Source of the DNA: Natrinema sp. SYSU A 869
GTDB taxonomy: Archaea > Halobacteriota > Halobacteria > Halobacteriales > Natrialbaceae
Length of the DNA: 64,000 nucleotides
Assembly: GCF_019879105.1 (NCBI RefSeq)
Contig: NZ_CP082249.1
Location: 3,286,001 to 3,350,000 of the forward strand
Reading direction: 5' to 3'
Made by a program: the position numbers and the translations under genes. Below the pieces are notes generated by a model. The model saw only the letters and a program-made list of their open reading frames with translations. It was not told where the DNA came from and did no database searches. Shown in pieces: positions 5,730-10,537 of this stretch (its first letter is position 1; every line of letters begins with the position of its first letter).

Positions 5730-6689
5730 CTATCGGCGGTCGACGCGCTGGATCCACGTCCCCGGCGCGTCGAGTTCGTCGTGGCTTGGGAGGTTCTCGG
5801 GCCCTTCCCAGACCAGACTTGCCGTCTCGAGGTCGCGGACGGCGACGACATGCTCGAAGAAGTTTTTGCCGCGCTCGTACTGGCGCTCTTTGAGCCCGAG
5901 CCCGAGCAAGCGGCGGAAGAGCTTCTGGAGCGGCCCCCGTCCCTGCCGGCGCGCGTCGAGTTTGCGCCGCAGGTCCTCGTACTCGTCGTCGAAGGCGTGG
6001 TCCATCAGGAGTTCAGCGTATCCCTCGACGACGGTCATCGCGGCGTCGAGGTCGCGGAAGGCGTCTCGATCGAACGAGCCCTCCGAGAGAGTCTCGATAC
6101 CGTCTTCCATGCGAGTCTCGAGGTGATCGGAGAGCCACGGCGCGGCCCCGAACTCGGCGGCGTGGGTTACCTCGTGGAAGGCGATCCAGCGGCGGAACCG
6201 GTCCGAATCCACGTTGAGCTTGTCGGCCGCGTTAAGGATATTCGGCCGGACGAAGTACAGCGCGTGATCGTTCGTGGGCGCGTCGGCCAGGAGGAGCGGA
6301 TCGTACTGGCCGAGGACGTTCCGCCCGAGGAAGGAGAGCAGGACGGTCATTGTCCCCGTATTAATCGTCCGGGCGACGCCGGGGAACACACCTGTGTGTG
6401 TCTCGAGCGCACCCATCACGCGCTCGAAGGTGGCGACGTTAGCGTCGATCCAGTGGTGACGGTTCTGGATCTCGACGGTCTCGGGCACGTCGAAGTCGAC
6501 GCCAGAGACCGTTCGAACGGCGGCTCGGGCGTCTCGGACGTCGCGGGCGTAGGCCTCACTCTCTCCGGACTCGAGGTCGAGCGGGCCGGGGTCCGTCGCA
6601 GCTTTGGCGGCGTCGGCGGCTGACCGCCAGTCGATCGCATCGTCACCGGACGCCCCGGCAACTGCCCGGGCGCTACGATAGAGATTCAC
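5730..6689 (-). CDS. zinc-dependent metalloprotease-like protein (DUF2342 type)
   Basis: The protein has 319 residues and starts at a GTG (6687-6689) giving MNLYRSARAVAG, the N-terminus I expect for this family. The central HEVTH (about residue 173), in the context FHEVTHAAEFGA, is the zinc-binding motif of the DUF2342 / coenzyme F420-biosynthesis-associated metalloprotease-like family. The first His, the Glu and the second His are all present. A helical C-terminal domain (GLKERQYERGKNFFEHV) follows. Its biological substrate is unknown. The in-frame extension upstream of the GTG is low-complexity and is not taken as coding. Confidence 0.8.
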   Translation of the reverse strand: MNLYRSARAVAGASGDDAIDWRSAADAAKAATDPGPLDLESGESEAYARDVRDARAAVRTVSGVDFDVPETVEIQNRHHWIDANVATFERVMGALETHTGVFPGVARTINTGTMTVLLSFLGRNVLGQYDPLLLADAPTNDHALYFVRPNILNAADKLNVDSDRFRRWIAFHEVTHAAEFGAAPWLSDHLETRMEDGIETLSEGSFDRDAFRDLDAAMTVVEGYAELLMDHAFDDEYEDLRRKLDARRQGRGPLQKLFRRLLGLGLKERQYERGKNFFEHVVAVRDLETASLVWEGPENLPSHDELDAPGTWIQRVDRR

Positions 6690-6746
6690 GACTGTCCGTA
6701 CGGCGAGGACGCGCAAAAGCGTTCGGCTCGGTCCGCAGATGTGATC

Positions 6747-6764
6747 GATCGCCCGCGGGCGATC
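6747..6764. other. 18-bp perfect palindrome
   Basis: GATCGCCCG followed directly by CGGGCGATC forms an uninterrupted 18-bp palindrome. It overlaps the stop codon of the 102-residue gene on the minus strand and lies upstream of the metalloprotease gene. It could be a terminator hairpin or a protein-binding site. Nothing else supports either. Confidence 0.35.
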
Positions 6765-7071
6765 AGTTGACGATAACGTCGGGTTCCTCCTCGGCCTCGA
6801 GCTCTGGCTCCTCGTCACTGCCGCGGAACTTCTTGGCGGCGGCGGCGATGCCGACGAGAACGACGAGCGCAACCAGTGCGCCGATCGCGCTCTTCCCTTT
6901 GCCGCCCGACTCGTCGTCTGCGGCCGCGCCCTCGTCGCGGTCGGGCTCCGTCTCGAGGTCTGCCTCCGACTCCGTGCTGCCGATCGGCAACGCCTCGCCG
7001 ATCGATCCGAGTCCGAACTGTGCTTCGCCGTCGAAGTGCAACTCTACGAGGGTGAATTTTGTGTCTCCCAT
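6763..7071 (-). CDS. single-pass membrane protein with acidic linker
   Basis: This 102-residue protein has an N-terminal beta-rich segment (MGDTKFTLVELHFDGEAQF), an Asp/Glu-rich linker (about 35-60), one transmembrane helix (about 62-80) followed by AAAKKFRG, and a short acidic tail. The layout suggests a membrane-anchored protein with a small soluble head. The family is not recognised. The gene lies 73 bp upstream of the metalloprotease on the same strand and may share its transcript. Confidence 0.6.
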   Translation of the reverse strand: MGDTKFTLVELHFDGEAQFGLGSIGEALPIGSTESEADLETEPDRDEGAAADDESGGKGKSAIGALVALVVLVGIAAAAKKFRGSDEEPELEAEEEPDVIVN

Positions 7072-8107: not shown

Positions 8108-9298
8108 ATGGAACCGACAGACGCCTTCGCCGGCCTCGAGTGCGTCGACTGTGGGGCCACCGTTGACGCCACCGCGACCCACCAGTGTCCGGACTGTGGC
8201 GGGTTGCTCGATCCGAGCTATGACTACGACGCGATCGATCTCGACCGCGAGACGCTCGCCGCCCGTCCGTTTGACTCGCAGTGGCGCTACGCGGAACTGC
8301 TGCCCGTTGCCCGCGAGTCGGCGGTGACGACGAACGAGGGGGCAACGGCGCTGGTCGACTGCCCCGATCTGGCCAACGAACTCGGCGTCGAGCGCGTCTT
8401 GATCAAAGACGAGGGCCGGAATCCGACAGGCTCGGTCACGGACCGCGGCGCGTCGGTAGCTGTCACCGCGGCCGCCTCCCACGGCGCGAGCGACGTCGCG
8501 CTCCCGTCGCCGGGCAATGGTGGACAGGCCATCGCGGCCTACGCGGCCCGCGCGGGGCTCCAGTCGCACGCGTATCTCCCCTCTCGGTCCGGCTTTACTA
8601 ACAAGGCCATGGTCAATGTTCACGGCGGAGATATGAACGTCGTCGGTGGCCGCTACGGCGACGCTGTCGGCGCGTTCGAGGAAGGACTTGCGGAACACGA
8701 CGACTGGTACTCACTCCGGGCGTTCGACACGCCGTATCGCCACGAGGGCGCAAAGACGCTGTTCTACGAACTCGCCGAACAACTCGAGTGGACGGTTCCC
8801 GACACGATCTGTTACCCGACGGGTGCCGGCACCGGGCTCGTCGCGCTTGCCAAGGCCGCGCGGGAGTTCCGCGAACTCGGTCTGACTGACGAGTTGCCCA
8901 CCCTCTACGCCGCCCAGGCGGCCGGCTGCGCGCCGATCGTCGAGGCGGTCGACAACGGCCGCGACGAACACGAGCCGGTCGAACACCCTGACACGATCTG
9001 TGGCGAACTCGAGATTCCCGACCCGACGGCGAGCCCGCAGGTCCTCGAGGCGATCCGCGAGACTGACGGCAGCGCGGTTGCGACTGAGGATCCGGATATC
9101 CTCGAGTCTGCTGCGCGGGTGGCCCAAGCGGAAGGGCTCGAACTGATCCCGAGCGCGGCAGCGGCCGCGAGCGGGGCGTGGGAACTCGCGGAGCGCGGTG
9201 CGTTCGACGGCTCGGAGACGGTTGTCATCGTCAATACTGGCGCGGGCAACAAGGAGGCCGACGTATTGCGGAGCCATCTGATGAGCCAGGGCGTGTAG
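8108..9298 (+). CDS. threonine synthase-like protein lacking the PLP lysine
   Basis: The 396-residue protein has the layout of archaeal threonine synthase, a fold type II PLP enzyme that turns O-phosphohomoserine into threonine. It has an N-terminal zinc ribbon (CVDC and CPDC, residues about 14-32), then the catalytic fold. The PLP-binding segment reads NPTGSVTDRG, where true ThrC has NPTGSFKDRG. Residue 111, normally the Schiff-base Lys, is Thr. The phosphate/substrate loop is also altered (SPGNGGQA instead of the usual S-x-GN[TS] pattern). The C-terminal VNTGAGNKEAD loop is kept. Either the protein no longer does PLP chemistry or it uses another residue. A TATA-like CCTTAGTTC sits about 27 nt before the ATG. 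Confidence 0.85.
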   Translation: MEPTDAFAGLECVDCGATVDATATHQCPDCGGLLDPSYDYDAIDLDRETLAARPFDSQWRYAELLPVARESAVTTNEGATALVDCPDLANELGVERVLIKDEGRNPTGSVTDRGASVAVTAAASHGASDVALPSPGNGGQAIAAYAARAGLQSHAYLPSRSGFTNKAMVNVHGGDMNVVGGRYGDAVGAFEEGLAEHDDWYSLRAFDTPYRHEGAKTLFYELAEQLEWTVPDTICYPTGAGTGLVALAKAAREFRELGLTDELPTLYAAQAAGCAPIVEAVDNGRDEHEPVEHPDTICGELEIPDPTASPQVLEAIRETDGSAVATEDPDILESAARVAQAEGLELIPSAAAAASGAWELAERGAFDGSETVVIVNTGAGNKEADVLRSHLMSQGV

Positions 9299-9836: not shown

Positions 9837-10537
9837 ATGACTACCCCTGGGACGATTGGAACCACATTCTCAAGATTGATCCAGACAAGGAGCTACCCGA
9901 GGGCGTGACCTACGGCGATCTCTGTGCGACAGGCACCGACGCGATCGAAGTCGGCGGCACCATGGGCATCACCGAGGAGAATATGAGCGCGGTCATCGAG
10001 GCCTGTGCCGAACACGACGTCGCCCTCTATCAGGAGCCCTCGAATCCTGATGTCGTCCTCGAGGACGATGCGCTGGACGGCTATCTCATCCCGACCGTCT
10101 TCAACGCCGGGTCGCCGTTCTGGATCACTGAGGCCCACAAGGAGTGGGTCCGGCTCGAGGGCGAACTCGACTGGGAGCGCACGACGACGGAAGCCTACAT
10201 CGTGATGAACCCCGAGGCCGACGTCGCGGAGCTGACGGAGGCCAACTGCGATCTCGGTGCCGACGACGTCGCCGCCTACGCGACGGTCGCCGAGCATATG
10301 TTCGGACAGGAGATCGTCTACATCGAGTACTCCGGCACCCTTGGCGACGAGGCAGTCGTCGACGCCGCCGCCGAGGCGACTGATGAGTCGACGCTGTTCT
10401 ACGGCGGCGGGATCCACGACTACGACTCCGCGTACGCGATGGCCCAGCATGCCGACGTCATCGTCGTCGGCGATCTCGCACACGATGAGGGTATTGAGGC
10501 GGTTCGGGAGACCGTCGACGCGGCCAACGACGCGTAG
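9837..10537 (+). CDS. geranylgeranylglyceryl phosphate synthase, start out of frame
   Basis: This enzyme makes the first ether bond of archaeal membrane lipids, joining geranylgeranyl diphosphate to sn-glycerol-1-phosphate. It is a TIM-barrel enzyme of the PcrB/GGGPS family. Family features are the N-terminal [11 protein letters not shown] strand, [38 protein letters not shown] and YIEYSG, and the phosphate-binding GGGI and VVGDLAH near the end. The expected ATG (9837) is one base out of frame with [11 protein letters not shown], which begins at 9842. The first in-frame start is a GTG at 9905, and starting there would remove the first barrel strand. A lost base just after the ATG is the simplest explanation. 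Confidence 0.8.

Follow-up and report, generated by a model that had tools for sequence, protein, structure and literature searches.

A threonine synthase-like protein of Natrinema without the PLP lysine is probably a pseudoenzyme of a nearly universal haloarchaeal family

The vitamin B6 cofactor (PLP) of threonine synthase is essential and is held by a lysine residue. Serine acetyltransferase contacts cysteine synthase, and this contact is the comparison that is taken up below for the docking of a C-terminal tail. The solved threonine synthases, which are fold type II enzymes (EC 4.2.3.1) and include those of Thermus thermophilus (1UIM/1V7C), Mycobacterium tuberculosis (2D1F), and Arabidopsis (2C2B), have their fold in common with the protein described here, with Z scores of 42-49 and identities of 23-34%. 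They are alike also in the NPTG..DRG frame, in EGxKT, and in the position of the asparagine loop but, unlike in these enzymes, in our protein the Schiff-base lysine is missing, the PLP phosphate loop is degraded, and there is a C-terminal tail that is unique to it. The bacterial relatives of the PRK08197 type differ from it as well, as they have the lysine (for example, PTGSFKARG) and do not have the tail. In the partners of CysK, CdiA-CT and others, a C-terminal Ile is usually conserved (PMC4961446). These partners and the Lys-less family both end exactly in a hydrophobic residue, here mostly as Gly-Ile or Gly-Val, but unlike in the CysK partners the protein that bears the candidate docking tail is itself of fold type II. 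Homologs of PLP enzymes that are without that activity, antizyme inhibitors among them, have also been described (PMC2748086). Antizyme inhibitors are kept in a regulatory role and the Lys-less proteins are likewise apparently activity-less homologs of a PLP enzyme; however, the antizyme inhibitors have a different fold, whereas among the Lys-less proteins the loss recurs inside a single family of orthologs across an order of archaea. In Haloferax volcanii, which has more than one gene named thrC, insertion in thrC3 (HVO_2969) resulted in an auxotroph that was rescued by Gly, Ser, and Thr (PMC4300041). The literature was searched for fold type II proteins without the lysine and for Haloferax thrC1, and nothing relevant was returned.

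The window, that is, the whole stretch of 64,000 nucleotides that was analysed, is from Natrinema sp. SYSU A 869 (NZ_CP082249.1, positions 3,286,001 to 3,350,000) and its relevant features are listed in Table 1. In the window translation residues N105 to G114 read AATCCGACAGGCTCGGTCACGGACCGCGGC and the codon of Thr111 is ACG. By phmmer, Thr111 is in register with the lysine of ThrC and the solved ThrC chains align over residues 60-387. This register and the intact open reading frame bear out the first-pass annotation in its claim that Thr111 occupies the position of the PLP lysine, and its description of a full-length, uninterrupted pseudoenzyme with a zinc ribbon is supported by the open frame of 396 residues in which Cys12, Cys15, Cys27, and Cys30 are kept. 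The closest relatives, 94-88% identical, are also non-Lys (SVT, SVA), and the named relatives with 82-90% identity are nearly all Natrinema. Since non-Lys residues occur at position 111 in independent genomes, the nearest relatives among them, a read error at Thr111 was ruled out. N105, T107, D112, and R113 are near-invariant in the Lys-less proteins and positions 110 and 111 are free. All four zinc ribbon cysteines were found in 53/53 Lys-bearing sequences of the wide sample described below, and in its Lys-less sequences Cys12 was found in 99/105 and Cys15, Cys27, and Cys30 in 86/105 each.

Table 1. Features of the locus, in coordinates of the window
Feature	Coordinates	Strand	Remarks
Zincin_2 (PF10103) gene	5730..6872	-	Upstream syntenic marker in Natrialbaceae
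Lys-less threonine synthase-like CDS	8108..9298	+	396 aa (8108-9295) and stop; ATG start; no internal stops
Zinc ribbon, N-terminal, Cys12/15/27/30	8141..8197	+	All four Cys present in window protein
Schiff-base segment NPTGSVTDRG, residues 105-114	8420..8449	+	Thr111 codon 8438-8440 where Lys is expected
Asparagine loop SPGNGGQ, residues 134-140	8507..8527	+	A135 in all Lys-bearing; T58/P36/A10 in Lys-less
Conserved non-catalytic stretch LPSRSGFTNKAMVNVHGGDMNVVGGR, residues 157-182	8576..8653	+	R160, H172, R182 in 105/105 and K166, N170 in 104/105 Lys-less
PLP phosphate loop PTGAGTG, residues 237-243, degraded	8816..8836	+	G240 replaced by A in window protein
Conserved stretch PDTICGELEIPDP, residues 294-306	8987..9025	+	D295, G299, E302 in 105/105 Lys-less
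C-terminal tail DVLRSHLMSQGV-COOH, residues 385-396	9260..9295	+	Motif RSHLMxxG[I/V]-COOH
PcrB-family gene (PF01884, GGGP synthase-like)	9905..10537	+	Downstream syntenic marker

The window protein scored 213 bits with the PALP Pfam profile and 338 bits with NCBIfam PRK08197 (NF006050), named 'threonine synthase', which has a curated cut-off of 303; a Lys-less Halarchaeum protein was also above this cut-off (325). With the thrC equivalog model TIGR00260 the window protein was below the cut-off (145.6 bits vs 167.1), and one Lys-bearing ortholog was just under it too (166.2). The separate canonical ThrC of the same genome, with the motif NPTGSFKDRG, scored 285.3 bits with TIGR00260. Because the PRK08197 model is blind to the lysine, the name 'threonine synthase' is probably wrong for the Lys-less members, and proteins so annotated are marked as probably not that enzyme. 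The AlphaFold2 models of the Lys-less protein and of a Lys-bearing ortholog had pLDDT values of 93.6 and 93.7, respectively, and the best solved structural matches of both were threonine synthases with Z up to 49-50. Given the pLDDT of 93.6 and best matches to threonine synthases with Z up to 49, the fold is, as modelled, intact after the loss of the lysine. A check for a canonical thrC in each genome, as proposed in the first-pass annotation, found a separate ThrC in every good genome tested, in 111/111 of Natrialbaceae and in 50/50 from other families, and threonine synthesis is therefore unlikely to depend on the Lys-less protein. The genome of the window also has three further threonine synthase-like paralogs (L003, L004, and L005) with SPTGSFKDRG or FPTGSFKDRG, two of which are very similar and are on different contigs.

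A homolog was found in 124/125 Natrialbaceae genomes, including 111/111 good ones (E below 1e-80), and among the good Halobacteriales genomes 342/345 had a member of the family (E below 1e-70). This suggests that a haloarchaeal protein with a conserved C-terminal tail, present in nearly every genome, has gone unrecognised. Among 165 distinct orthologs, 60 had a residue other than Lys at position 111. In a wide, order-wide haloarchaeal sample, to which families f4, f5, f10, and f12 were added, position 111 was non-Lys in 105/160 sequences, which is not a prevalence figure because the sample was drawn partly by way of the Lys-less motif. A DNA pattern search, which omits A-initial codons and includes chance matches, gave 174 genomes that were not used as a census. 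Thirteen kinds of residue (L, A, T, V, Y, R, D, H, and others) replace the lysine in the 105 Lys-less homologs and position 111 is therefore unconstrained; within Natrinema alone the triplets at 109-111 are SVT, SST, SVA, SRT, and SVR, and the set from the four added families is mostly Lys-less, with L, V, Y, H, A, T, and others. The Lys-less form is spread over the f5 genomes, at least 12 of which have two copies, a Lys-bearing one (TFK, PTGGGVG) and a second, Lys-less one, and its role should thus be open to experiment in a haloarchaeon that is amenable to genetics, provided that the strain chosen has the Lys-less gene.

The loss of the lysine is accompanied by changes elsewhere in the cofactor pocket. 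The first-pass annotation had reported that the phosphate loop, given as SPGNGGQA, was changed; that this segment is altered is correct, but we take residues 134-141 to be the asparagine, or substrate-carboxylate, loop of fold type II enzymes and, from what is known of this fold and from the alignment with ThrC, we take PTGAGTG (237-243) to be the PLP phosphate loop. GGG at 239-241 is present in 53/53 Lys-bearing sequences and position 240 is replaced in 98/105 Lys-less ones, and of the two altered loops PTGAGTG is, as judged from the alignment, the stronger sign of cofactor loss. In 23 columns conservation is 95% or more among the Lys-bearing and below 50% among the Lys-less proteins, and these include F110, K111, A135, K215, M218, G240, V242, G243, and G300. 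N137 (67/105) and T377 (62/105) are relaxed too in the Lys-less proteins. The ligand-site residues that last are G136 (105/105), Q140 (99/105), and R211 (103/105), and as these and N137 persist, the site could still accommodate a ligand or a reaction that does not depend on PLP. When the 105 Lys-less proteins were compared with the Lys-bearing alignment, no lysine column specific to the Lys-less proteins had been gained, and the takeover of the Schiff-base role by another lysine was rejected on this ground.

The dN/dS of the window gene compared with other Natrinema was 0.11-0.2 (Nei-Gojobori), and at equal dS the Lys-less pairs resembled the Lys-bearing pairs in dN/dS. By this measure purifying selection continues to act on the gene despite the loss of the catalytic residue. 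Conservation is 95% or more at 55 positions across the 105 Lys-less proteins, and R160, H172, R182, D295, G299, E302, R388, and L391 are at 100%; D112, R113, and G136 are also among the invariant residues. In the Lys-bearing paralogs of f5, N170 and R182 are absent, G299 is replaced by N, and E302 is replaced by A. N170, R182, G299, E302, M392, and G395 travel with the C-terminal tail and are other residues in these paralogs.

This tail, which is kept almost universally, had been missed in the first-pass annotation. RSxLMxxG[IVLMF] forms the exact C-terminus of all Lys-bearing orthologs (42/42) and of most Lys-less proteins (97/105), but of none of the Lys-bearing f5 paralogs (0/13) or outgroup rows (0/8). 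In the tail subfamily 139/147 members have this motif at the exact C-terminus, with Ile or Val mostly as the last residue. The conservation of the last twelve residues was 0.83 vs a protein mean of 0.63, and it is at the tail that AlphaFold2 was least sure, with pLDDT values of 81 and 73 for the last blocks. A tail that is conserved yet modelled as less well-ordered suggests a docking segment, and it could instead be a structural cap. The f5 Lys-bearing paralogs (L357-L368, L436), in which the tail is absent and the end is acidic and variable, do not belong to the tail subfamily and occur alongside a Lys-less copy. In the homolog of Natrinema hispanicum DSM 18328 (L051, L034) a frame change near residue 371 replaces the conserved tail, and in Natrinema hispanicum CDM_6 (L043/L022) the tail is intact; the frame change may be a sequencing error.

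The gene product is probably a PLP-free pseudoenzyme that derives from a fold type II (PRK08197-type) PLP enzyme and has been retained for binding or for regulation. The loss of the cofactor is well supported by the alignments, and the binding or regulatory role is what we infer. The common ancestor would have had enzyme activity as well as a second role, binding or regulatory; the activity, which would be dispensable because a canonical ThrC is always present, would then have been lost repeatedly and the binding role retained. Both the Lys-bearing and the Lys-less orthologs keep the same three regions, residues 157-182, residues 294-306, and the exact C-terminus. It is unlikely that the protein is instead a PLP-independent enzyme whose old pocket has been rebuilt with the conserved R160, K166, H172, R211, Cys274, and Glu302. 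These residues are near or fully invariant in the 105 Lys-less proteins and G136, Q140, and R211 remain on the ligand side of the pocket, as such an enzyme would require, but the same six residues are invariant in the Lys-bearing orthologs too and therefore nothing new arose with the loss of the lysine, and the altered pocket positions vary by lineage and never settle on one new set. The new chemistry that the first-pass annotation had offered as its other option finds nothing in its support, and the PLP-independent enzyme stays as a rival reading. Even less probable is that PLP is still bound, non-covalently or through another lysine. Almost all members have K100, K166, and K216, and crystal structures with ligands exist for Lys-to-Thr mutants of the tryptophan synthase beta chain (2tys, 6duc, 7lt4). 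However, these three lysines are equally conserved where the catalytic lysine is present and none was gained, the phosphate loop has decayed (GGG changed to T, H, S, E, or D at 240, with G243 often lost), and N137 and T377 vary. That this is a decaying enzyme, a non-functional gene heading to a pseudogene, is scarcely credible: the frame change near the C-terminus in Natrinema hispanicum DSM 18328 and the long branches of some Lys-less lineages would fit decay, but the low dN/dS, the frames that are open throughout, the 55 positions conserved over deep divergence, and the presence of the family in nearly all good genomes would not.

If the protein is a pseudoenzyme kept for binding, the tail is where a partner might be contacted. 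By analogy with the C-terminal Ile of CysK partners, which tail docking would resemble, we offer as a tentative idea, more apt to be wrong than right, that the Gly-Ile/Val tail, with its free carboxylate, docks either in the protein's own vacated site or in a pocket on a partner, which could be the active site of a different PLP enzyme of fold type II. More doubtful still is the fuller proposal that this near-universal haloarchaeal pseudoenzyme works as a subunit or as a regulator and that its RSHLMxxG[I/V]-COOH tail docks into some PLP enzyme in amino acid metabolism, such as the canonical ThrC, a cysteine synthase, or another, much as serine acetyltransferase contacts cysteine synthase; the protein's own catalysis would then have been discarded repeatedly because docking alone matters. 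What makes the family valuable in any event is that the cofactor and the lysine were shed repeatedly in one orthologous family while the remainder stays under selection, and catalytic and non-catalytic constraint can be separated residue by residue in its Lys-less members.

The history of the loss is more complex than the V-T change fixed in a clade that the first-pass annotation had envisaged; this was too narrow, as position 111 drifts and there was more than one loss, order-wide. A single Lys-less clade across the order was rejected in AU tests run with Lys-correlated columns removed (p 4.9e-7; wider set, p 7.5e-4), and parsimony of the presence or absence of the lysine on the wide tree gave 7-8 changes, at least 7 of which are forced by well-supported branches. 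The Zincin_2 and PcrB-family genes flank the locus in much of Natrialbaceae, in Lys-bearing and Lys-less forms alike, and outside Natrialbaceae the flanks differ (LysE transporter, HD domain, metallophosphatase). Since the flanking genes vary between families, no operon gives a pointer to function. Because Lys-bearing and Lys-less forms occupy one locus between the Zincin_2 and PcrB-family genes, the simplest account is exchange of alleles by recombination together with more than one independent loss. A related reading, which concerns the history and not the function and is compatible with the pseudoenzyme explanation, is that one ancient Lys-less allele spread among genera by homologous recombination, as opposed to many separate losses, and we rate it a real possibility although somewhat short of even. 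Within Natrialbaceae only, a single Lys-less clade was not rejected (p 0.515 with protein; p 0.054, borderline, with codon data), the changes number 11-13 on the canonical ThrC tree, used as a species proxy, vs 6-9 on the gene's own trees, the Lys-bearing members of g1, g10, and g23 are placed outside their own genus, with g10 as a single clade rejected on the gene tree (p 0.02), and both forms are found at the one locus. On the other hand, a single origin was rejected order-wide and holding L194/L195 with the main clade gave p 0.03, and therefore more than one loss is needed regardless.

A few sequences depart from these patterns. Five Natrinema orthologs (L016, L017, L028, L032, and L035) have NPTGTSKDRG or NSTGTSKDRG, in which the lysine is present and Phe110 is lost; they carry the remaining Lys-less traits and are nested among Lys-less relatives. 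The lysine in these orthologs is possibly a back mutation from ACG to AAG, and from their sequences they may be partly functional intermediates. The metagenome-assembled genome QS_9_68_17 (L071) has TCN at 109-111 with the phosphate loop PTGGGGG, and its near neighbour L214 is ordinary; the TCN may be a recent loss or an assembly error. Finally, a further paralog with NPTNTFKDRG, 41-49% identical, was found in a few Natrialbaceae genomes (L207-L212, L213; genomes G050, G049, G111, G055, G114, and G038), often on a secondary contig, and G050 has two copies of it about 17 kb apart.
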